NCBI GenBank assembly: GCA_013332095.1
Contig: JABENI010000016.1
Span: 62,001-126,000, forward strand
DNA from: Candidatus Bathyoplasma sp. NZ
GTDB lineage: Bacteria; Bacillota_I; Bacilli_A; MAG-NZ
Direction of reading: 5' to 3'
Length of the DNA stretch: 64,000 nt
Shown here: positions 3,143-47,339 of the stretch, one piece after another
Layout: every line of letters starts with the position of its first letter
How positions within the stretch are numbered: the stretch's first letter is position 1
Position numbers and translations under genes: made by a program
Notes under the pieces: generated by a model
What the model saw: the letters and a program-made list of their open reading frames with translations, nothing else
What the model was told of the DNA's origin: nothing
The model's database searches: none

Positions 3143-4472
3143 TATCTTTCCCGTCCTTTATCTAATACCTTTCTTACAATATTTTCATAATGATTGTTCT
3201 CAACTAATTTTTCAACTAGAAATTATTTTTCTTTAGTTTCCTCATTTAAAAGTTTGCTTTCTGACATATATACATTTTCCAAATTATTAATATCCACTTC
3301 AGTAAGACCCATTTCTTTTAAATCATCAAATTTCTTACTATCTTTAAAATGTATAAGATTAGAAAGTTCTTCTAAGTTGTGTCTTCTATCTTTGATTAAT
3401 TATTTTGAAGCAAGCAAGTTAAATTGAAGTTCTGAACTTTTTGCTTCAAAGTGCTGTTCTGTTTGTATTTTATTTTCATGTACATAGACAAGCAAACTTT
3501 CCAGTTTTTTAACATTATCTTTGTAATATTTAATTGCTTTATTCTTTTTATCTTTAAATTCTTGTTCTCTTAAAATTTTCTTGATTTGATAAAATATATT
3601 ACTTATTTTTACCTCAAGATGTGTTTTAGGTATAAAATTTGATTTAAGTTTTCTAATTATTACACTTGGTTTCTTATCTTTAATAATATCTTTAGTATCA
3701 ATATCCAATCTATTGAGTTCGATTCTCGCTACAATATTTTCTTTAAAATATTGATACCCAAGAGATCTATCTCTCACAGATTTTTCCATTTTTGGATGAT
3801 GATAAGAAATCCATTTTCTATCTTTTCCATCTTTTGTTTCATCGCAAATTACCCACCCCCTTCTTCTAAGAATTAACAAGAAAGTTTCGAAATTATGAGT
3901 TTTTCTAATTACCTCATCAATTTCTTTTTTTAATGTTCTTTTCCAAGACTTTCCGTGCTTGGATTCAATCCACTCTTTGTATTTGACTGATTTACCTTTA
4001 TAATTTGATATATCAATTATACTTAAACCGTTTTGTAAACATAAGTAATGACTATATTCTCTAAATTCTTTAATTTTATTTTTATTTCTACATAATTTTT
4101 TACCATTTTCATAGTTTACAGAGTTCACAAGAATATGATTATGAATATGATCTTTGTCAATATGGGTTGAAATTACATACTCGAATCCTTTTAATTTTGC
4201 TTCACATAACTCCTTGGCCATTTCAAAAACTCTCGTTGGTCAACTTCGCCAGGTACAAAAGGTTGAATTATATGATGGCCTAAAACTCCTCTATTCTTAT
4301 CAAATTTTCGTTTCGTTAATTCCATTTGAAAAGAAGATAGTCCTTCAATACAATTTTGAAATTTCACAAAATGAAACTTATCTTCATTCAAAATGTAATT
4401 TATTGCTTTTTCCATTGTTACATGTATATCAATTATTTTTAGATATGCAATTTTTATCACTACCTTTAACAA
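3142..4472 (-). pseudogene. Broken mobilisation relaxase (MobA/MobP type)
   Basis: The relaxase domain is split by a 1-base shift in a T-run near 4230. Before it lie KAINYILNEDK and LGHHIIQPFVPGEVD; after it FEMAKELCEAKLKGFEYVI and the metal-binding HIDKDHIHNH motif. These match the N-terminal nuclease region of plasmid relaxases that nick oriT to start transfer. A TAA at 3402-3400 then interrupts the frame, which continues to a second TAA at 3225-3223 and finally ends at 3144-3142. The start overlaps the end of mobC, the normal gene order in mobilisable plasmids. With one frameshift and two nonsense codons the protein is almost certainly inactive. Confidence 0.75.
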
Positions 4473-32528: not shown

Positions 32529-35500
32529 TTAAGGAAAATCAACAGTTGTTATTGGTATATAGCCAAAGAATGGTGTATTTTCTCCTACATCATAATAAAC
32601 TGTATAAGTAGCAATGTTTCCTGAACGATCACGTACTCTTATACCGTTTTGTCCATTTCTTAAATGAATATCAGTTATTTTAAAAGTTGGTTTTACAGTT
32701 ATCCAATTTTCATCATTTACTTGGTATCCTGTAAGTCTTTCATCAGATTCAAATGTATATACTGAATCATTAACTACACTAGCTCCTCCAAAAATTGGAA
32801 CTGAAACATCATAAGCACCAGTATTAATTACTGACCCAAAGTTTTCAATAAGTATTTCTCTATTTGTACCACCTGTACTTCCACTAGAAATGATCACTTT
32901 ATTGCCTTTTGATCCGCCTCCAAATGTGTTAAAATTCGTTTTTCCAACAAAAGTTTTATTGATATATATCTCTGCCTTAGGTAATCTCCCTATTGCTCCT
33001 GCTGTTTTAGGAATATGAATCACAAAGTCAAATGAATCGCCAGCTTTTACTTTTGGTGCCTTTACCGTTCGCGAAATTCCGATAGCAGGAACACCAGCAT
33101 TACCATTTAGGATTACACTCCCATCAACCGTAGCTATTTCCACATACTCCCCTGAATAAGTAATATTTAAACCATAACGCCTATTCGAACTACTACCTGT
33201 AATCATTTCAGCTTCAAATTGTAGTCCTACAAATGCACCATATCCTTCTTGAAAATTTCCTGCATAAGTATTTTGAGCAGGAACGATAACTCTCCCTCTA
33301 ACAACTCCACCATTACTGTATAAATTATTATAATCATCTTTATCCAATAGTCTAACCGTTTGCAAAATTGCAGTAGAACTATCATCTAATTGTTGGAGCA
33401 CTTTTACTTGTTCTCCAGCAACATCAAGTTCATAAATCTTATAACAAGCGGCTCCATTACCGTACTCCTGCTTACAATTTCCATCTTCATCAAATATATC
33501 TGGAGTTATTGCTCCTGCTCCGTTAAATTGCCAATTAGCATCACTGTCCCATGGAAGTAACCCTTTAGAAGCGTAAAACATTAGGTTATCATTACCAGTT
33601 GTTTTTGCTTGAATCGGAAATGTATCACCTACATCACCTTCAACACTTTTCAACAGTAATCGATGTGGTAAATTATCTCCAATATAAATAGTATATTCAC
33701 CTTTAAAAGAAGGAGTAATTGCTACAAATTTACCTCCATCTAGTGAATATTCTACTATTGGCTCATTTGTCGTAAAAACATACTGTTGTGCTAATGTCCA
33801 ATTGCTACCTTCTAATATCCAATTTCCTCTCGTTATTGTAGGTGTTCCTAATGTTCTTGCTCTAAATGTTGCACTTACTTCTACTGCCTTATTTCCTGCT
33901 GCATCAGTTACATTATATTTTACTATTACCTTGTTTCCTGCTGTTTCTAATTCTATTATTGCTGCTGTTAAATTTACTAATGAAGTTGTTCCATCTGCTT
34001 TAAAATATGTTACCTCTACTCTATCACTTATATCTACACCTGTATAATCCTTTGCTGTTGCTGTTGGTGCTTTCCAAGTTCCAGAATCTTCTGTAATTAC
34101 TGTTGCATCATCTATTGGCTCTATTACTGGTAGTTCATTATCTAGTCCTGCAGGTGTAAATGTTGCAAATACTTCTGCTGCTTCATTATAGGATCTATCC
34201 TCTGCATCATATCTTACTACTACAGCTCTTCCTGCTGCTAATTCTGTTCTTGCTATATCTAAATTTATCCATCTAATTCCATCTGCTTTCAAGTAGTTTG
34301 CATATACTCTTAACCCTGTATCTATATTATCTATTACTGTTACTGTTGCTATTGGTGCTTCCCAAGTTGAAATATCTTCTGTTTCTACTGTCGTATCATC
34401 TATTGGCTCAATTACTGGTGCTTCATCATCTGAATAAACAAATCCTTTTCTAGTAATGGCAACATTACCTGCTGCATCACTTACATTATATTCTAAATTT
34501 ACACCTCGTCCTGCATATAATTCTGTTCTTGCTGTTGCTAAATCTATCAGTTCACGGGGAAAACTTGCTGAATAGTATGTTACTACAGCTATTAACTCGG
34601 TATCAATATTTTCGGTTACCGTTGCTATTGGTGCTGTCCAACTCAAAGCATTTTCCATTTCTACAAATATAAAATTTACAGCACTTAGATGATCTTTTCT
34701 AAATCCTTCTACTTCTATTACTGGTGGTGTAATATCTACTGATCCTGTATTAATTACTGTAAATGTTGCACTTACTTTTTCTGCTTCATTACCTGCTGCA
34801 TCTCTTACTCTATATGTTACTACCACCGTTCTTCCTGCTTTTAATTCATTTATTACTTCAAATAATTCTATATATTTTCCATCTGGTCTGCTATGTGTTA
34901 AATATATAGAATCACTTATATCTCCATCTATATCATCAATTGCTGTTGTTGTTGGTGCTTTCCAAAATGGTGTCTCCTCTAAATCCACTATTGCTCCGTC
35001 TACTGGCTCTATTACTGGCGCTGTATAATCTGTACGCAAACCTAGAACTACAGCAGATCTATTTCCTGCTGTATCATACACAATATAAGCTATCTGTACA
35101 GTTCCGTATGTTTTTAATTCTGCTTTTACTGCTGCAAAATCTGCTAAATAATCATCATCGTAATTTATCATAGCTGCTATATCTGCAGTTAATCCCTTAT
35201 CTATATTATCTGTTACTGTCATTGTTGGTGCTGTCCAATTTGAAACATCCTCTATTTCTAAATTTATGTAAACATTAATTACATTTCCGTAAAAGTCATC
35301 AACCTCTCCTTCATATCCTTCTACTTCTATTACTGGAAATGTATTGTCTATTGCTGTAAATGTTGCACTTACTTCTACTGCCTTATTTCCTGCTGCATCT
35401 TTCACATTATATTTTACTACTACACTTCTTCCGCGATATAATGCTATTCTTGCTTCTTCTTCATTTAACAATTGTGTTTCATCTGCTTTAAAGTACGTTA

Positions 35501-35774
35501 CTACTATATAATCACTTATATCTCCATCTATATCATCATTTGCTCTTGTTGGTGGTGCAGTCCAAGTTGAAGCATCTTCTGTATTTACTGCTACTCCTAA
35601 TACTGGTTCTATTGTTGGTGCTATAGTATCTGATCCTCTAAGTGTTGTACTTATTTCTTCTTCTGCATTTACCTCTTTTTCTATAAATCTTGGTGCTAAG
35701 AACGCTACTATTGTTAATGTTATTACCATCAATAAGTAACCTATTCTTTTAAAAATGTTTTTTCTTTCTTTCAT
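32529..35774 (-). CDS. Secreted protein with six Ig-like repeats and a lectin-like domain
   Basis: A 1081-residue protein with an N-terminal signal peptide (KRIGYLLMVITLTIVAFLAP, likely cleaved near VNA-EEE at about 38). Six ~100-residue Ig-like repeats (about 45-640) follow, each with 'apviEp.dg..v...d...W.aP' and ending 'vvvkYnvsDAAGNkavevsatF', as in DUF5011-type domains. Residues about 690-960 form a compact beta-rich region with YASKGLLPWDSDANW and AFVGLQFEAE, resembling legume-lectin-like domains. A last Ig-like unit (ESDERLTGYQVND, then VRDRSGNIATYTVYY) ends the protein. No LPXTG or other anchor is visible, so release or non-covalent wall binding is expected. Adhesion or glycan binding is inferred. 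Confidence 0.8.
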   Translation of the reverse strand: MKERKNIFKRIGYLLMVITLTIVAFLAPRFIEKEVNAEEEISTTLRGSDTIAPTIEPVLGVAVNTEDASTWTAPPTRANDDIDGDISDYIVVTYFKADETQLLNEEEARIALYRGRSVVVKYNVKDAAGNKAVEVSATFTAIDNTFPVIEVEGYEGEVDDFYGNVINVYINLEIEDVSNWTAPTMTVTDNIDKGLTADIAAMINYDDDYLADFAAVKAELKTYGTVQIAYIVYDTAGNRSAVVLGLRTDYTAPVIEPVDGAIVDLEETPFWKAPTTTAIDDIDGDISDSIYLTHSRPDGKYIELFEVINELKAGRTVVVTYRVRDAAGNEAEKVSATFTVINTGSVDITPPVIEVEGFRKDHLSAVNFIFVEMENALSWTAPIATVTENIDTELIAVVTYYSASFPRELIDLATARTELYAGRGVNLEYNVSDAAGNVAITRKGFVYSDDEAPVIEPIDDTTVETEDISTWEAPIATVTVIDNIDTGLRVYANYLKADGIRWINLDIARTELAAGRAVVVRYDAEDRSYNEAAEVFATFTPAGLDNELPVIEPIDDATVITEDSGTWKAPTATAKDYTGVDISDRVEVTYFKADGTTSLVNLTAAIIELETAGNKVIVKYNVTDAAGNKAVEVSATFRARTLGTPTITRGNWILEGSNWTLAQQYVFTTNEPIVEYSLDGGKFVAITPSFKGEYTIYIGDNLPHRLLLKSVEGDVGDTFPIQAKTTGNDNLMFYASKGLLPWDSDANWQFNGAGAITPDIFDEDGNCKQEYGNGAACYKIYELDVAGEQVKVLQQLDDSSTAILQTVRLLDKDDYNNLYSNGGVVRGRVIVPAQNTYAGNFQEGYGAFVGLQFEAEMITGSSSNRRYGLNITYSGEYVEIATVDGSVILNGNAGVPAIGISRTVKAPKVKAGDSFDFVIHIPKTAGAIGRLPKAEIYINKTFVGKTNFNTFGGGSKGNKVIISSGSTGGTNREILIENFGSVINTGAYDVSVPIFGGASVVNDSVYTFESDERLTGYQVNDENWITVKPTFKITDIHLRNGQNGIRVRDRSGNIATYTVYYDVGENTPFFGYIPITTVDFP

Positions 35775-37343: not shown

Positions 37344-39452
37344 TTATCTCCATCTTGATTTCCATCGTGGATAAGGCATAACCATATCCTCAACCTCTAT
37401 TACAGGTACGTAGGGTGTGGGTTCAAAATCTTCTTCATTTATATTTTTTTCTACAAGATAATAAACTGTATAGATAGCAATGTTTCCTGCAATATCACGT
37501 ACTATAAAATTATTCCCTCCTTTTCTTAAAAGAATATCATCTATTTTGAAAGATGGCGTTATAGATACCCATTTGTCGCCATTTAATTTGTATCCTGTAA
37601 TGTTTTCATTAGATTCAAATGTATATATTGGATTGTTAACGACACCATTTCCTCCAAAAGTTGGAGCTGTAACATCATAAGTCCTAGTATTAATTACTGA
37701 CCCAAAGTTTTCAATCAGTATTGCTCTATTTGTCCCCTTTGTACTTCCGCTAGAAATGATCACTTTATTGTCTGATGATCCACCTGGATTAAAGTTCGTT
37801 TGTCCAACATAAATTCCATTCACGTATATCGCTGCCTTAGGTAATATTCCTATTGGTCCTGTTGATTTAGGAATATGAAGCTCAAAGTCTAATGAGTCTC
37901 CAATTTTTACTTCTGGCAGATATACAGATTTCGAACTTCCTTTAGCAACATCTTGCTTACCATTTAGAACTTTACTTCCTTCGGTTGTAACTATTTTTAC
38001 ATACTCACCTGAATAAGTAATATTTAAACCATAACGCCTATTGGTATTACTACCTGGAATCTTTCCAGCTTCAAATTGTAGTCCTACAAATGCACCATAT
38101 CCTACCGCTTGAGAATTTCCTGCATAATTCTGAGTATTAGGATCTCCTATTCCTGCATAAGTATCTTGAGCAGGAAGTATAACTCTCCCTCTAACAGCTC
38201 CACCATTACGGTATAAATTATTATAATCATCTCTATCCAATAGTCTAACCGTTTGCAAGATTGCAGTAGAACTATCATCTAACTGTTGGAGCACTTTTAC
38301 CTGTTTTCCATCAACATCAAGTTCATAAATCTTATAACAAGCTGCTCCCTCACCGTACTCCTGCTTACAATTTCCATCTGCATCTAATATATTTGGAGTT
38401 ATTGACCCTGTTCCGCCATATTCCCAATTAGAATCATTGTCCCATGGAAGTAATCCTTTAGAAGCATAAAACATTAGATTATCATTATTCTTTAATATTA
38501 CTTGAATCGGAAATGTTTCACTTATATTCCCTTTAAAATTTTTGAACTGTAATTGATGGGAAAATTTATTTCCAATATCAATATGATATTTACCACCAAC
38601 ACGAGGGCCAATTGCTATAAAATTCCCTCCATCTAGTGAATACGATACTATTGCCTCATTTGTTGTAAAAGCATATTGTTGTGTTAATGTCCAATTTCCT
38701 GTCATTATCGTAGTTAATCCTATTTTTTTTGCTCTAAATGTTGCGATTACTTCATCTGCTGCATTTCCTGCTGCATCACTTACATTATATTTTACTACTA
38801 TATTTCTTCCTGCTACTAATTCTTGTCTTGCTGCATCTAAATCTACTAATGGAGTCGTTTGATCTTTTTTGAAATATGTTATTACTATATTATCACTTAT
38901 ATCTCCATCTTTATTATCCTGTGCTGTTGTTGATGGTGCTGTCCAATTTAAAGCATCCTCCGTATTTACTTCTCCTCCTACTACTGGATTTATTACTGGT
39001 ACGAGTTTGTCCGTTATTGAAAATATTGCGCTTACTTCTTTTGCTGCATTTCCTGCTGCATCACTTACGTTATATCTTACTATTATATATTTTCGTGTTA
39101 TTAATTCTACTCTTGCAGCTTTTAAATTTATTGAAGTTGTTCCATCTCCTTTAAAGTACGTTTCTGTTGCTACTAATCCTGTATCTAAATTATCTGTTAC
39201 AGTTGCTGTTGGTGGTGTCCACCTTAAAGCATCTTCCTTTTGTACCCATATTTCAGTTTTACCGTTCTTTAATTCATACCCTTCTATTTCTATTACTGGC
39301 GCTTCTTTATCTGGTGCTACAATTGGTACTGGTCCTTCTGAAGCGTTTATCTCTTTTTCTATAAATTTTGGTGCTAAGAACGCTACTATTGTTAATGTTA
39401 TTATCATCAATAAGTAACCTATTCTTTTAAAAATGTTTTTTCTTTCTTTCAT
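37344..39452 (-). CDS. Secreted protein with two Ig-like repeats and a lectin-like domain
   Basis: A 702-residue paralogue of the 1081-residue protein. The signal peptide is almost identical (KRIGYLLMIITLTIVAFLAP). Two Ig-like repeats (about 48-245) replace six. The lectin-like region (about 310-590, with YASKGLLPWDNDSNWEYGG and GAFVGLQFEAGKIPG) is strongly conserved, with one insertion near 455 (GDPNTQNYAGNSQ). After the final Ig-like unit the tail is different (EDFEPTPYVPVIEVEDMVMP, then a basic end). Differences in repeat number suggest recombination between repeats. No wall anchor is visible. Confidence 0.8.
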   Translation of the reverse strand: MKERKNIFKRIGYLLMIITLTIVAFLAPKFIEKEINASEGPVPIVAPDKEAPVIEIEGYELKNGKTEIWVQKEDALRWTPPTATVTDNLDTGLVATETYFKGDGTTSINLKAARVELITRKYIIVRYNVSDAAGNAAKEVSAIFSITDKLVPVINPVVGGEVNTEDALNWTAPSTTAQDNKDGDISDNIVITYFKKDQTTPLVDLDAARQELVAGRNIVVKYNVSDAAGNAADEVIATFRAKKIGLTTIMTGNWTLTQQYAFTTNEAIVSYSLDGGNFIAIGPRVGGKYHIDIGNKFSHQLQFKNFKGNISETFPIQVILKNNDNLMFYASKGLLPWDNDSNWEYGGTGSITPNILDADGNCKQEYGEGAACYKIYELDVDGKQVKVLQQLDDSSTAILQTVRLLDRDDYNNLYRNGGAVRGRVILPAQDTYAGIGDPNTQNYAGNSQAVGYGAFVGLQFEAGKIPGSNTNRRYGLNITYSGEYVKIVTTEGSKVLNGKQDVAKGSSKSVYLPEVKIGDSLDFELHIPKSTGPIGILPKAAIYVNGIYVGQTNFNPGGSSDNKVIISSGSTKGTNRAILIENFGSVINTRTYDVTAPTFGGNGVVNNPIYTFESNENITGYKLNGDKWVSITPSFKIDDILLRKGGNNFIVRDIAGNIAIYTVYYLVEKNINEEDFEPTPYVPVIEVEDMVMPYPRWKSRWR

Positions 39453-40303: not shown

Positions 40304-42034
40304 TTATTTAACACTTTTAATCCACTCTAACAATTTTAAGGCGGCATCTTTTGGACCTGCCATTTCCCGTCCTGGGATACCCAATTGAGTATAAATTTGA
40401 CCTACTGGTATTTTGTTCTCAAACAGTTGATCGTAAACTTTATCAATTAAAATATCACATTGTTCTTTTCTTTGAACTGGTCCAAATGGATTTGCAAAAT
40501 AACTATCTACAAGTCCTTCTTCGGTAGTAGTTCCTTTAGCTTTTCTTCTACCTGAAACAAATATTTTTTTCGCATCATCGACATTATTGAAGAAAGTTAA
40601 ACAGCTATCTAATTTTTCATAGTTATTAGCATACAACAATATGTCTACTTCATAACCCTTCATAATTACATCATACGGTGCTACTGGAATTAGTAATCGC
40701 GCATTTTGTCTATGAGGATTCATAAATATTCCTCGGTCTAATTCTTGATAAGCGTATCCATCATCTAAATCATCAACTCTAACGAATGCTCCCGTTTCAG
40801 TTCCGTAACCGATAACTTTTCCATCTTCAATTTTAAAAGTTCCCATATCATCAAAAATAATTTTTAAATCTTTTAGTTTACTTGCACTTAAAACTCTAAA
40901 GGCCTCTAAACTTTCGCTTTTACCAGCACCACTATCTCCAACAATCGCAATGTTTGCTTTTGTACCATCTATCATCGTAACCGCAACCATCGCTCCATGA
41001 ATAGGTAAATGCCCATTATCTAACATTTTAATATTATGTAAAGTTAATAACATTTTTTTCATATATCCAAAATAATCAATTTCATCAGATGCATTGGCAA
41101 ATCCAACATAAATATCATTTTTTTTATCAATATAATAACTCGGTGGTATCTCTTGATCTAAATCTGCTCCAAATACATAAATTAAATCCGGTTTTCTGCC
41201 ACTAAAATCTTCTTTTTTAACTAATTCAAATAAATTACATAGCGAAACACCATGATTAATATATTTTCTATTGAAATAGGTATAAGTTAAAAATTCTCCT
41301 ACTAAAGCGGGATAACATAACCAATCATCTTCGTTTAAATTAATTTTGCTAATCGGATTGAAATCAATTTCAGAAAATATCCCTGCCCTTTTATTTTTTT
41401 TAGGATAGGTAATAAAAGGAGCTCGCAAAATTACTGAACTGATAAAATTAATTCCCGATAATCCTTCATAACCTACAGGTTTATCCCACTTGTTTCCCGT
41501 AACCATTAACCCAACGTTTAAGCCAGCTTGAAGTTGACGGTAAACGTTAAATTTTCCCCCTAAAATATTAGTTAATATTCTACGGTAGGTAAATAATATT
41601 AAATCTGTAAATTTGTTAGTTTCTTCAATAAAATTTAATCCTTCAATACCTTCTGCCTCTTCTCTTGAATAGACTAATGCATATCTTTCTAATTTTCTCC
41701 AATAATTATACAGTCCATCAACAAATTCGACTAACTCATCGTGCAAGCCGTTAATTTTTTCTGTTTTAGCATTTAATTCTACAACTTGATCAAAATTTAA
41801 TATTAACAATAATTTGAATAAATCAATAAAACTTGTGATGAGTTCCTCTTCACTATCGTTTATTGTATTAAATTTCTCGATTAATAATTGATTATTTTTT
41901 TCTAAATTTTTTATGTACGATGCCAATATCTTATTAAACAAATTACTTTCGATAATTTCAATTGATTTTGTACAATATTTTTTACTAAAATTCATTAAAA
42001 CATTTGTTTCTGAACACAAAAATTCTTTTCTCAT
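40304..42034 (-). CDS. PEP carboxykinase/HPr kinase-like P-loop protein
   Basis: A 576-residue protein. The first 350 residues are helical and not recognised. A Walker A of the HPr-kinase/PEP-carboxykinase superfamily, GDSGAGKSES, lies near residue 366, followed by IIFDDMGTF (Asp pair, about 395), GYGTETGAFVRVDDL and an AYQELDRGIFMNPHRQNARL stretch, which fit the catalytic half of PEPCK-like enzymes. Such long PEPCK-like proteins occur in Bacillota without a proven role; gluconeogenesis and protein phosphorylation are both possible. It follows jetC by 53 bases, but a TATAAT at 42068-42063 suggests its own promoter. It is not a JetD. Confidence 0.6.
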   Translation of the reverse strand: MRKEFLCSETNVLMNFSKKYCTKSIEIIESNLFNKILASYIKNLEKNNQLLIEKFNTINDSEEELITSFIDLFKLLLILNFDQVVELNAKTEKINGLHDELVEFVDGLYNYWRKLERYALVYSREEAEGIEGLNFIEETNKFTDLILFTYRRILTNILGGKFNVYRQLQAGLNVGLMVTGNKWDKPVGYEGLSGINFISSVILRAPFITYPKKNKRAGIFSEIDFNPISKINLNEDDWLCYPALVGEFLTYTYFNRKYINHGVSLCNLFELVKKEDFSGRKPDLIYVFGADLDQEIPPSYYIDKKNDIYVGFANASDEIDYFGYMKKMLLTLHNIKMLDNGHLPIHGAMVAVTMIDGTKANIAIVGDSGAGKSESLEAFRVLSASKLKDLKIIFDDMGTFKIEDGKVIGYGTETGAFVRVDDLDDGYAYQELDRGIFMNPHRQNARLLIPVAPYDVIMKGYEVDILLYANNYEKLDSCLTFFNNVDDAKKIFVSGRRKAKGTTTEEGLVDSYFANPFGPVQRKEQCDILIDKVYDQLFENKIPVGQIYTQLGIPGREMAGPKDAALKLLEWIKSVK

Positions 42035-42087
42035 CTAACCATCCTCTCAAAATAATTTCTTAATTATATCACAACTTCCAACAAAAA

Positions 42088-45000
42088 TCAGTTCTTTTTT
42101 AAATTTAACTTATTCAAACTGAAAACCCAAGATTGATTTTTTTCTCTGGTAACAATCAATGTTGATTCCACATAAGGGTAAATATCTTCAACTTTTTGTG
42201 GTGGTGTTGATAAAATAACTTGTAATCCTAATTGTCCTAAAAACTTCATTACAGCTTCAGTTCTAATACTATCAATTTTATCGAAAGCCTCATCAAATAA
42301 TACAATACCTATTGAACTAACTTCCAGATTAGATTTTTGGTAGATTTTTACAAAAGTTGAGGCCATTGAAACGTAGTAGGGAATTTGTGTTTCCCCTCCA
42401 CTTTTTTCTCTAGAAATTTCTGATAGTAGACTAACACTATTTTCCGCATGAATAATTTCAATGTCATAATCCATGTAAGTCCGATAATCTAACATTTCAA
42501 TTATCATTTGCTCATTCAAATCGTCTTGAATCAAATAATCCATCAATTCATCTAAAATTTCACCGTATTCTTTTAAAAATTTTTCACTAAATCCCTCAAC
42601 ATTGTCATGGAATTTGGTGCAATTATAAAACATTTCATAATATGCTAAATGAGTAGTATTTGGCATTATTTTGAATCGATAGTGATCTGTTCCAAACTTT
42701 ATTGCATCAAGCGATTGATTTAGAGCAGCAAAATAGTTGTGGGCGTTAACAATACTTTCGTAAATTCTAAATAAAAAATGTTCCTTTAATTCTTTTTCAC
42801 TTCTTTTTCTCGATTCTTCTACTTTTCCGGTGAATTTTAATAAATGCGAATTTCTAAGTCTTTGCAGTTCTTCATAAAATTCTTCAATATTATCTAATCC
42901 ATCCTCGCCCTTGAAGTCGTGTTTAGTAATATATACTTTTTGGAGCAGTACTAATTCATTTATTTTTTCAAAATAAATTTTTCTATTTTTATTTAATTGA
43001 AGTTCAATATTTTTAAAAGTTGTCTTATAATCTAGATTTTTATACTGCAAATATTTTTCTCTCGCTTGTTCAATAATATCGACAACTTCAATTTCATAGT
43101 CAACTAATTCTTGTCTGCTCTGACCTAACTTAATTGTTATTTCTTCCACATTATTTAATTCTATCAACTGGTGTTCTAATATATTAATTTCTTTAGTGAT
43201 TTCCGATTGTCTTTTAGAAAATTCAATTACCTCTGTTTCAACAGCAGTTAACATTTTCCTTTTATCATCAATCGATAAATTTTCTAACGAATCGATAGTT
43301 TTATCAATCTCTTTTAATTTATTGATAGCATTCAAACGATTTATTTTAATATCAAATTTTTGTAAAACTGTCGCTAAATTATTTAAACTAAGATAACTAT
43401 CTTGACTATTTAATTCGGTAATATCGTTATTAATTTTTATCAATATCTCTTTTTTACTATTTACTTTTTCCCCATTTCTTACTAACTGTGTTTCGTAGGC
43501 TTTATTTCCGATATAAAGTTTATTGTAATTAAATCTATTTAATTCGCTTAAAACAAATCCTCGGTAAATTAGACAATCTTTTGTTACCGCTACATTATGT
43601 TTAGGTAAATCGTTTGCTTTTGAACATCTTACGACATTATTTAAACGATAATTAACATAGTATTTAGCTAACTGGTATTCACTTGTCACTAGCGATGCTA
43701 ATGAGTCTTCTTTTTCGTAATCATACTTAATAATTTTTCTAGTATCAACTATCGAAATGCTTTGTTTATATTTTGATCTAATGTTTTTGTATATTTTAAG
43801 TGCTTCTAAAAAATGTTCTGGTTCAATTAAAATGTTAAAACGATCTTTACCTAAATAACCTTCAATTGCATTTTGCCATTCAATATCGCTTATATCTAAA
43901 ACTTGGCACAGAATAATTGGATTAATTTCACTTTTTTTATATTTTTCTGCTAATTTTTCTTTAAGTTCATTTTTAAATTTTAAGACTTCACTATTAATTA
44001 AAACCTTTCGTTCATTCAATAATTTGTTTTCTTGATATAATTCTTTCAATTCTTTTTCAACTGTTGTTTTTTGAATATTTTCTTTGAAAACTTTATTTTT
44101 AATCTCATTTTTGATTTTAGAAATAAAGTCGTAGTAATTATTTATTACTACTGAAAATTCATTTAAATTAAGTAAATTTATTTCACAGTTCTCATACTGC
44201 AAAAAGGCATTTAAATAAGTACTATCATATCCTGAATTAAGTAGTTCTTTAGCTCTTGCCAACTCTTTTGAAATAATAACGTTGATTTTATCATCGTTTG
44301 CCGTTAAAACTGTAATTTTTTCAAGTATTTCACTACGATCTAGTTTTAATCTTTTAAAAACTTTATAATCATCATCAACTAACAACGATAAATTTAAGTC
44401 GTCTTTTTTAGATATTAGACTATCTAACTTTCCGTTTATTTCTAACAACCTAGTTTTATAATTGTTTACTTCTAAATCAATTTTTTGTTTTAAGATATTA
44501 TTTTCCGATATTTTATCTTCTAGATAATCTAATTTTAATCTTTTGTGTATATATAAATCATGTCTAATTTTAACATCGTACTCATTTACTTTTTGATGAA
44601 TATTTTCGACCATTTCCAAATCTGCAATTTTTTCATTTATCTCATCTAGTAAGAGGCTAAACTCTTTGTAAGTTTTTATGTTCCCGATTAAATACTCCAC
44701 ATCTAAATTTCTCTCTTCTAAAATATAAGTATAAATGAAATCTTTTACATTATTTATCGGTTTAAACGCCAGTGCTTTAGGCAGTAGATCAAAATAATTA
44801 TAATCAAAAATTTCTAGTTTTTCGCTAATTAATTCTCTTGCTGCCTTTAAGGTATTAGTGTGTTTATAATTTAATTTTGAAGACTTTAAAAACGCCTTAA
44901 ATTCTTTAATATTTTTGGAGTATTTATCAGTTATATAAAGTTGATCATCAATTTGAAAATCATCGATTGCATAAAATAGTGAATTGGGAGTTGACAGGAC

Positions 45001-45342
45001 ATCTTTACTATCTAAAACAACTCCATAAACTAAACTGCGATCATTTTTATCATCGTAAAATTCTAAACTAATATGACAACTAATATCTCCAGCTCGTAAA
45101 TATTTTTGATTACTCTTTCCAAGTTTTCCTCTAATATATGATGTAGCAGTTCTTTTATTTCCATCGTTTGCTGCAATATTAAATCGATATTTCCCCGGTG
45201 CTAATACAAACTGTAGGGCATCTAAAATCGTCGATTTACCAGCTCCATTTTCTCCAGTAATTAAAGTGTTTCCCTCAATTTCTATCGTTTCATTGCTAAA
45301 ATAATGCCAATTAATCAGCTTGATTTTCTTTAGTTTCTTCAT
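42088..45342 (-). CDS. jetC: SMC-like ATPase JetC (MukB/MksB type)
   Basis: A 1084-residue SMC-type ATPase: Walker A GENGAGKSTILDAL (about residues 28-41), long coiled-coil arms with a hinge-like middle (about 270-880), signature KSGGETQIPYY (about 982) and Walker B VLFDEAFDKID (about 1010). In Wadjet and MksBEF complexes this subunit extrudes DNA loops. The start at 45342 has GAGGA 5 bases upstream and overlaps jetB by 32 bases. It ends in TGA, the clearest use of that stop in the window. The family is secure; defence versus chromosome organisation is undecided because JetD is absent nearby. Confidence 0.85.
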   Translation of the reverse strand: MKKLKKIKLINWHYFSNETIEIEGNTLITGENGAGKSTILDALQFVLAPGKYRFNIAANDGNKRTATSYIRGKLGKSNQKYLRAGDISCHISLEFYDDKNDRSLVYGVVLDSKDVLSTPNSLFYAIDDFQIDDQLYITDKYSKNIKEFKAFLKSSKLNYKHTNTLKAARELISEKLEIFDYNYFDLLPKALAFKPINNVKDFIYTYILEERNLDVEYLIGNIKTYKEFSLLLDEINEKIADLEMVENIHQKVNEYDVKIRHDLYIHKRLKLDYLEDKISENNILKQKIDLEVNNYKTRLLEINGKLDSLISKKDDLNLSLLVDDDYKVFKRLKLDRSEILEKITVLTANDDKINVIISKELARAKELLNSGYDSTYLNAFLQYENCEINLLNLNEFSVVINNYYDFISKIKNEIKNKVFKENIQKTTVEKELKELYQENKLLNERKVLINSEVLKFKNELKEKLAEKYKKSEINPIILCQVLDISDIEWQNAIEGYLGKDRFNILIEPEHFLEALKIYKNIRSKYKQSISIVDTRKIIKYDYEKEDSLASLVTSEYQLAKYYVNYRLNNVVRCSKANDLPKHNVAVTKDCLIYRGFVLSELNRFNYNKLYIGNKAYETQLVRNGEKVNSKKEILIKINNDITELNSQDSYLSLNNLATVLQKFDIKINRLNAINKLKEIDKTIDSLENLSIDDKRKMLTAVETEVIEFSKRQSEITKEINILEHQLIELNNVEEITIKLGQSRQELVDYEIEVVDIIEQAREKYLQYKNLDYKTTFKNIELQLNKNRKIYFEKINELVLLQKVYITKHDFKGEDGLDNIEEFYEELQRLRNSHLLKFTGKVEESRKRSEKELKEHFLFRIYESIVNAHNYFAALNQSLDAIKFGTDHYRFKIMPNTTHLAYYEMFYNCTKFHDNVEGFSEKFLKEYGEILDELMDYLIQDDLNEQMIIEMLDYRTYMDYDIEIIHAENSVSLLSEISREKSGGETQIPYYVSMASTFVKIYQKSNLEVSSIGIVLFDEAFDKIDSIRTEAVMKFLGQLGLQVILSTPPQKVEDIYPYVESTLIVTREKNQSWVFSLNKLNLKKN

Positions 45343-45922
45343 TGTTATCCTCACTTTTGTAACTGTCTAATTTACTGTATACATCTTTAATTTCATCAAC
45401 ATTTATCGCAATTTCAATCGCTGGATAAATTGTTACAAGATCTGTTACCTTAAATTGAGTCGTACTGTTAATATTGATTAAACTGTATTTTTTAAATAAA
45501 ATTAAACATTCCGATATCTTCGTTTTGTTTAAGCCTTCAAATCCAATTACATTGAACATATCGTGAATATCTGATATTTTAACTTCTACATTTTTATTTA
45601 AAGTAATTTCTTTTTTATTCTCTTCATACAACAGTCTTAAAATAAGTAAAAATATTGAGTCCAGTAGTTTTAAATTTATTTTATTTGTTCCATGAATATT
45701 ACTGATACTTATTACTCCAAGTTTATTATTAATTTCTAATTCAATGTCCATCAACAATAAATACTCTTTAAATATTTCAAAATGCTTACTTATGAAAAAG
45801 TAGGCACTAGTACTATCTTTTTTAACTTTCACTAAATAATTTACTTGAAGTAGTTTGTTTACATAGAGTGAAAAACTCTTTTTGTCTTGGATTGTTAACT
45901 CATTATATTTACTGAACCACAT
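45311..45922 (-). CDS. jetB: JetB (MukE/MksE-like, DUF6063-type)
   Basis: A 203-residue winged-helix-like subunit: N-terminal NELTIQDKKSFSLYVNKLLQ, beta segment KDSTSAYFFISKHFEIFKEY and C-terminal YPAIEIAINVDEIKDVYSKL. In this complex class it bridges the kleisin (JetA) and the ATPase. It overlaps jetA by 14 bases and jetC by 32, so all three are co-translated. Assigned mainly from size, order and general pattern. Confidence 0.75.
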   Translation of the reverse strand: MWFSKYNELTIQDKKSFSLYVNKLLQVNYLVKVKKDSTSAYFFISKHFEIFKEYLLLMDIELEINNKLGVISISNIHGTNKINLKLLDSIFLLILRLLYEENKKEITLNKNVEVKISDIHDMFNVIGFEGLNKTKISECLILFKKYSLININSTTQFKVTDLVTIYPAIEIAINVDEIKDVYSKLDSYKSEDNNEETKENQAD

Positions 45923-47339
45923 AATTTTCTCTCCTTATAACAAAGTTTCTAAAGTTGATATCATTTCTTGTCGCTGTTTCATTTAAAAAATCTATTTTAT
46001 AAATATCGCTTTTATTACTATAAATAATGATGAATATTAAATAAACAAAGTCATCTATCGTTTCTAATTTTAAGTCTGTTGCCTGTAATCTTTTCTTTTT
46101 TCCCAAACATTTTTCAACATACTCTTCTATCACTTTTAACGAATGTTTGGAATTCCTGATTTTATTTAATACTATCTCATTGACCTCTTTATTAATCGTT
46201 AAATCCAACTCTAAACGTTTGTTTTTACTGTTATTTCTAGCCTGTTTAACTTTATACAATGAACTGGTAGTCAAATTGTTAAAAGTGAATGCAGACAGGA
46301 TGTTTTTCATTATATTTGCATGATAATTTTCTTCTTCTTGGTGAATCATCATCGTCTTTATAATGGTCTTCAAATACCCTTCAACATCATCGTAATTATT
46401 TACAATAAATCGCGTTTTTTTCAAAATGATATTGGAGTATAAATAGTTTTCTTCTTCTATTGAATAAACAATTTCACTAATGTTTTGCACTGAACTCAAA
46501 GAATATTTTAACATTTCCATTATTTGTTGTTTTGCTTCTATAACATCTCTTGCATAATCAAATTTAACAAATTCTAAGGCAACTTTGTCAATATATTTAG
46601 GATTTTGAATTTTTTTGATTAAGTTATTTACAATATTTGCTTTGTATTTACTAATATTGTCCAATGTTTTAATTTTATGGAAATTTTTATTCAAGATTTC
46701 ATTAGTATATTCAGTAAAAAATTCTTTAATTACATTGTCGGTAGACATACCAATTTTTACTGTATCGGAGTATTTTTTAATACTGTAATTCAATTGTTTT
46801 AAAGAATTGATCAAATGTTTTAAATTATCGTATACTTGAATAATTATTGTACTTTCATTTAGGTCTTTAGCTTTTAATAAATTATTTACGGTATGAGCGT
46901 ACCCATCAATTTCTACTTTACTAGAGTAATAATATTTCACTTTTTCCTGTTCTTCAACAGTTTTCGATTGATAACTATTATTAACAATTTCCATTATAGC
47001 GTTCACAAAAGGTATTGCTTCATTAGCAAAAAAAACATTTTTAGTATAGTCTCTATTTAAGCCTTCTAAAATCCAGCCGGTATCTTTAAGTTTTCTAATA
47101 ATTATGTTAGCTTTTTCCACAAGAGACGATGAATCATCTTCAAATTCATTAAATTCTTCCAATATCTCACTGTTTAACAGTTCTATTATATCGCTAACTA
47201 ATTCTTTTCTAGAATAAGAAAAACTATTCTCGCTTTCAGTTTTTTCAAAAATCAACCTTAAACATTTGGCGTAAAATTCTTTATTTTTAGAATTTAAAAT
47301 GCTAAAAAAGTTATTGTTTATCACATTAAAAATATTCAT
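45909..47339 (-). CDS. jetA: JetA (kleisin, Wadjet type III, DUF5716-type)
   Basis: A 476-residue mostly helical protein, first in the operon. The N-terminal FSYSRKELVSDIIELLN resembles the winged helix of kleisins, and the helical middle (DYARDVIEAKQQIMEMLKYS) and end follow. Kleisins link the two ATPase heads and the MukE-like subunit. The start at 47339 has GGGAG 13 bases upstream, a little far. A small inverted repeat CGTAAT/ATTACG (47367-47384) upstream could be an operator. Confidence 0.75.
   Translation of the reverse strand: MNIFNVINNNFFSILNSKNKEFYAKCLRLIFEKTESENSFSYSRKELVSDIIELLNSEILEEFNEFEDDSSSLVEKANIIIRKLKDTGWILEGLNRDYTKNVFFANEAIPFVNAIMEIVNNSYQSKTVEEQEKVKYYYSSKVEIDGYAHTVNNLLKAKDLNESTIIIQVYDNLKHLINSLKQLNYSIKKYSDTVKIGMSTDNVIKEFFTEYTNEILNKNFHKIKTLDNISKYKANIVNNLIKKIQNPKYIDKVALEFVKFDYARDVIEAKQQIMEMLKYSLSSVQNISEIVYSIEEENYLYSNIILKKTRFIVNNYDDVEGYLKTIIKTMMIHQEEENYHANIMKNILSAFTFNNLTTSSLYKVKQARNNSKNKRLELDLTINKEVNEIVLNKIRNSKHSLKVIEEYVEKCLGKKKRLQATDLKLETIDDFVYLIFIIIYSNKSDIYKIDFLNETATRNDINFRNFVIRRENYVVQ

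Follow-up and report, generated by a model that had tools for sequence, protein, structure and literature searches.

Wadjet type I systems (JetABCD, also called MksBEFG or EptABCD) are the described systems most like the locus analyzed here. A review that asks how SMC complexes can function in chromosome maintenance as well as in immunity suggests that both MukBEF and MksBEF are former defense systems (PMC10586767). MukBEF of enterobacteria is an SMC-like complex that apparently replaces SMC-ScpAB as the chromosome organizer, and MksBEF of Pseudomonas aeruginosa, which is thought to be JetABCD minus JetD, is reported to act on the chromosome (PMC10586767). That MksBEF derives from JetABCD by loss of JetD has, as a principle, been proposed before (PMC10586767). 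P. aeruginosa also has SMC (PMC7485682).

The operon studied here lies in the window (the whole stretch of DNA analyzed, 64,000 nucleotides), and its parts are given in Table 1. All four protein-coding frames, which span 40304-47339 on the minus strand, are open and complete. jetA and jetB overlap by 14 bases; jetB and jetC overlap by 44 bases if jetC starts at a GTG and by 32 if it starts at the ATG four codons later. The motifs of JetC are intact (Walker A, GENGAGKST; signature, SGGETQ; Walker B, IVLFDEAFD). The frames, the Pfam and PADLOC matches, and these motifs bear out the claim of the first-pass annotation that jetA, jetB, and jetC are overlapping and complete. Its label of Wadjet III was rejected: type III subunits do not score best in PADLOC, and the best models are JetA1, JetB1, and JetC1, all of type I. 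By these scores and Pfam, JetA, JetB, and JetC of Wadjet type I stand together in one operon, and the system is type I by sequence.

TABLE 1 Positions in the window of the jetABC genes, the gap downstream of jetC, and the neighboring gene
Feature	Coordinates	Strand	Basis
jetA (kleisin-like subunit, 476 aa)	45909..47339	minus	PF18982, E = 6e-61; PADLOC JetA1, 278 bits
jetB (KITE-like subunit, 203 aa)	45311..45922	minus	DUF4194, E = 2e-22; PADLOC JetB1, 165 bits
jetC (SMC-like ATPase, 1088 aa)	42088..45354	minus	PADLOC JetC1, 869 bits; motifs; profile versus solved JetC chains
jetC-PEPCK gap, 53 bp, where jetD would be expected	42035..42087	minus	Sequence and ORFs
PEPCK/HPr-kinase-like P-loop protein, 576 aa	40304..42034	minus	NF006821, E = 2.7e-5; distribution in relatives; family alignment

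The first-pass annotation had also noted that jetD was missing beside jetABC, and this was confirmed: the gap downstream of jetC held no relic of a jetD gene. Nor did the whole genome hold a match to PF09983, PF11795, or a purpose-built profile made from 16 JetD proteins, so the suggestion that JetD might be supplied from elsewhere in the genome was not upheld. Searches for SMC-ScpAB, likewise proposed in the first pass, gave no match to the SMC hinge, ScpA, or ScpB profiles in the window genome or in two genomes of the same family, G002 and G003 (Bacillus subtilis and other controls were positive).

The operon thus resembles Wadjet type I in its JetA, JetB, and JetC homologues, gene order, overlaps, and PADLOC models, and some of its nearest JetC relatives outside the window's family belong to operons of Haloplasma-type genomes that have JetD. 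It differs in that neither operon nor genome has JetD, and its host lacks SMC-ScpAB, whereas SMC-ScpAB is present in 10 of the 17 genomes of the class that carry JetD. Like a nuclease-less JetABC/MksBEF condensin, it has an SMC-like ATPase with intact motifs, kleisin and KITE subunits, and no JetD/MksG gene. The likeness to P. aeruginosa MksBEF is one of description, and unlike that bacterium the window genome has no SMC that we could find. The locus is set apart from MukBEF by the JetC family profile, which is closer to solved JetC chains (E = 2e-34) than to MukB (E = 2e-15). With SMC-ScpAB it shares a presumed role, chromosome condensation and segregation; JetC is of a different SMC lineage.

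Because JetD is missing, the complex should not cleave plasmids by the known mechanism, as the first pass had predicted from the sequence. Of the three options that it offered for jetABC (service as a condensin, use of a nuclease encoded elsewhere, or work with the PEPCK-like protein), the first is favored because SMC, ScpA, and ScpB are missing too. Our reading, which we think probable, is that a Wadjet I jetABC has permanently lost JetD and now acts as the condensin of the chromosome. The SMC motor JetC, the kleisin JetA, and the KITE subunit JetB would extrude loops of chromosomal DNA in place of SMC-ScpAB, the parts for ATP-driven DNA translocation having been kept and the cutting part lost. 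Since extrusion without JetD would no longer end in a cut, the motor would be harmless to chromosome and plasmids alike. As no other SMC condensin was found, loop extrusion and segregation of the chromosome is the most economical role. With P. aeruginosa MksBEF as the precedent (PMC10586767), we infer that JetABC without JetD extrudes loops, acts on the chromosome, and substitutes for SMC. Besides the intact operon and ATPase motifs, this reading draws support from the class survey, genomes with two JetA loci of which only one has JetD, the spread of JetD-less operons over several separate JetC clades, purifying selection, the near fixation of JetA in family f9, and the position of sepF next to jetC in family f21, all described below.

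We surveyed 395 genomes of the class (presumably Bacilli), not scoring weak matches to PF09983 (E > 1e-12) as JetD or to the SMC hinge (E > 1e-8; G053, G129, G198, G212, and G383) as SMC. JetA was found in 115 genomes; with G020, in which JetA is cut by a contig end, there were 116 JetABC genomes. Convincing JetD (E < 1e-15) was present in only 17 genomes, in 15 of them sharing a contig with JetABC genes; the other two were G321, in which JetD lies beside a second jetBC where JetA was not recognized, and G267, which has no JetABC in view. Nearly all of the Clostridia loci retrieved by name have JetD, and Acholeplasma-type and phytoplasma loci are without it. SMC or ScpA was present in 184 genomes and absent from 211. 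JetABC occurred in 14 of the former versus 102 of the latter (Fisher P = 2e-20, ignoring kinship), and SMC-ScpAB was missing from 95 of the 99 JetABC genomes without JetD versus 7 of the 17 with it (P = 2e-7, again ignoring kinship). A kinship-aware test on the JetC tree, which offers only 5 independent JetD contrasts, gave no significant association of JetD with SMC.

Several observations count against the condensin reading. Neither type I JetABC nor SMC/ScpA was found in 109 of the 395 genomes; therefore, SMC can be lost in the absence of JetABC, and JetABC is not a necessary substitute. The independent lineages are few, JetD-less copies in Haloplasma-type (f7) genomes coexist with SMC, and the genes flanking jetABC vary between genera of the window's family. 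Its nearest relatives, G002 and G003, have JetABC (JetC about 50% identical) with genes for a MalK-type ABC ATPase and an alpha-amylase downstream.

The JetC tree bears on how often JetD presence has changed. Seven changes in the JetD label are required on a 123-row tree, 6 of them forced by well-supported branches; on a 68-row mixture-model tree from which the longest branches were left out, it needs 4 changes, 3 of them forced. Approximately unbiased (AU) tests (41 rows, LG+G4) rejected a single clade of all JetD-less rows (P = 4.6e-7) as well as a clade uniting the window's family and those f7 copies that lack JetD (P = 1.2e-6). A clade of the window's family with JetD-less families f20 to f22 was not rejected (P = 0.20). 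The window's clade stands beside JetD-bearing f7 copies (support, 92 to 96). The presence of JetD has thus changed repeatedly, with loss as the simplest explanation, and an independent loss by the window's family appears likely, though not proven.

JetA was present in 68 of the 88 genomes of family f9, which by its named members is Acholeplasmataceae. Most of the genomes lacking it belong to genus g197 or to g131, a genus of small genomes that is probably Phytoplasma; JetA is missing altogether from several small g131 genomes assembled as one contig. At three phytoplasma loci (L126, L129, and L131), JetB and JetC follow a gene of 260 aa that does not match JetA but occupies the position of jetA. 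In the JetD-less family f21, sepF lies directly downstream of jetC at 7 of 8 loci (L154, L155, L157, L158, L159, L186, and L188); the two genes often touch or overlap, an arrangement suggestive of one operon. The adjacency of sepF, a cell division gene, is a link to cell division. Three Haloplasma-type f7 genomes, G031, G042, and G061 (loci L032/L034, L172/L173, and L174/L175), carry SMC-ScpAB, JetABCD, and a separate JetD-less JetABC, possibly an intermediate state.

The strongest rival to the condensin reading is that JetABC is still a defense system, in which loop extrusion alone would silence or sequester plasmid or phage DNA or an unrelated nuclease would be recruited from elsewhere. The proteins do belong to a defense family, and a search for JetD cannot detect a nuclease of another family. 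We nevertheless consider this unlikely: the genes are present in most f9 genomes, in contrast to the usual patchiness of defense genes, their distribution tracks the absence of SMC, and no JetD-like protein was found in trans. In addition, several genomes have JetD-less copies alongside separate JetABCD copies: G031, G042, G061, G069, G157, G328, and G383 each have two JetA loci, only one of which is accompanied by JetD (in G069 the locus with JetD looks broken). The first pass had noted that a captured plasmid in the same chromosome would fit a noncleaving system. A MobA/VirD2-type relaxase gene does exist close to the window's left end (3400-4221, minus strand; E = 4.8e-16), a trace of a mobile element, but this is weak evidence, as a mobilization remnant reveals little of what JetABC does at present.

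A second alternative, which we regard as very improbable, is that jetABC is the decaying remnant of a Wadjet system, left with no present function once its nuclease was lost. The loss of JetD itself fits such decay, as do the small-genome g131 relatives that have lost jetA and the short gene found in its place at phytoplasma loci. Against it stand the full-length frames and intact motifs, as well as the ratios of nonsynonymous to synonymous change (dN/dS) between JetD-less relatives. These were 0.04 to 0.06 for jetA and jetB in G002 versus G003 (dS was saturated, and jetC was not computable) and 0.02 to 0.04 in another JetD-less pair. The JetD-less jet genes are under purifying selection, and JetABC has been retained at deep divergence within JetD-less clades.

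It is also conceivable that the organism has JetD or SMC-ScpAB and that the draft assembly misses it, the genome (1.82 Mb) being in 44 contigs and 97.35% complete. The PF11795 result is uninformative alone because that model misses the genuine JetD of a relative. PF09983 and the 16-protein profile, however, do find JetD in f7 relatives (E = 1e-30 to 1e-158); the latter detects it in G020 (E = 5e-151) and G031 (E = 5e-158) and finds nothing in the window genome, G002, or G003. G002, a single contig that is 93% complete, likewise has no JetD, SMC, ScpA, or ScpB, and the DNA downstream of jetC in the window is contiguous and occupied by another gene. We consider an assembly gap slightly less probable still than decay. 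The N terminus of JetB, examined as a marker of contact with JetD, showed no clear pattern.

That other gene encodes the PEPCK-like protein, whose resemblance to PEP carboxykinase is weak, the NF006821 match lying far under that model's cut-off. Its GDSGAGKSE motif resembles the P-loop of HPr kinase. The family is strongly conserved and poorly annotated in the class, with GDSGAGKSE and DDMG invariant (the window protein and L039 and L041 to L046). The gene is present in 13 of 40 relatives, the window genome included, and the 12 other proteins are 42 to 54% identical; the remaining JetC-bearing relatives do not have the gene. The gap contains an extended -10-like sequence, TGATATAAT, which was picked by eye and is absent from the list given by a consensus promoter scan; promoter and terminator sites were no more numerous than in shuffled sequences. 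That the PEPCK-like protein is a new effector of JetABC, as its adjacency on the same strand might hint, we give almost no credence, since the gap contains a promoter-like site, JetC is absent from 11 of the 12 other carriers and encoded on a different contig in the twelfth (G003), and among the 40 relatives the gene adjoins jetC only in the window genome. This distribution largely refutes the partnership raised in the first pass, which had named linkage confined to this genome as the outcome that would count against it, and we judge the neighbor to be outside the jetABC system and there by chance. Farther along the same strand, at 32529-35774 and 37344-39452, are genes for two large, related secreted proteins with near-identical N termini and repeated HYR/OmpL47-like domains.

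The window operon is therefore best seen as real and as an example of something broader that seems not to have been described: type I JetABC lacking JetD in genomes that also lack SMC-ScpAB. Among titles and abstracts of the open-license literature (searched for Wadjet, JetABC/JetD, phytoplasma, Acholeplasma, and condensin), we found no report of JetD-less JetABC in these lineages. Because many relatives show the same pattern, a defense machine has probably been repurposed for chromosome organization. A broader proposition, on which we are evenly divided, is that type I Wadjet was domesticated several separate times across Bacilli, acholeplasmas and phytoplasmas among them. JetD would have been lost and JetABC become the sole condensin of genomes without SMC-ScpAB, organizing the chromosomes of entire families; one of these would encode it in an operon shared with sepF. 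The genomes look like several replicates of a transition from defense to chromosome maintenance, with possible intermediates in which SMC, JetABCD, and JetABC alone occur together in one genome. Tools that call Wadjet from JetABC genes may overcount defense systems in these families. Species that have JetABC and neither JetD nor SMC would make it possible to test directly if a Wadjet motor is able to organize a chromosome.
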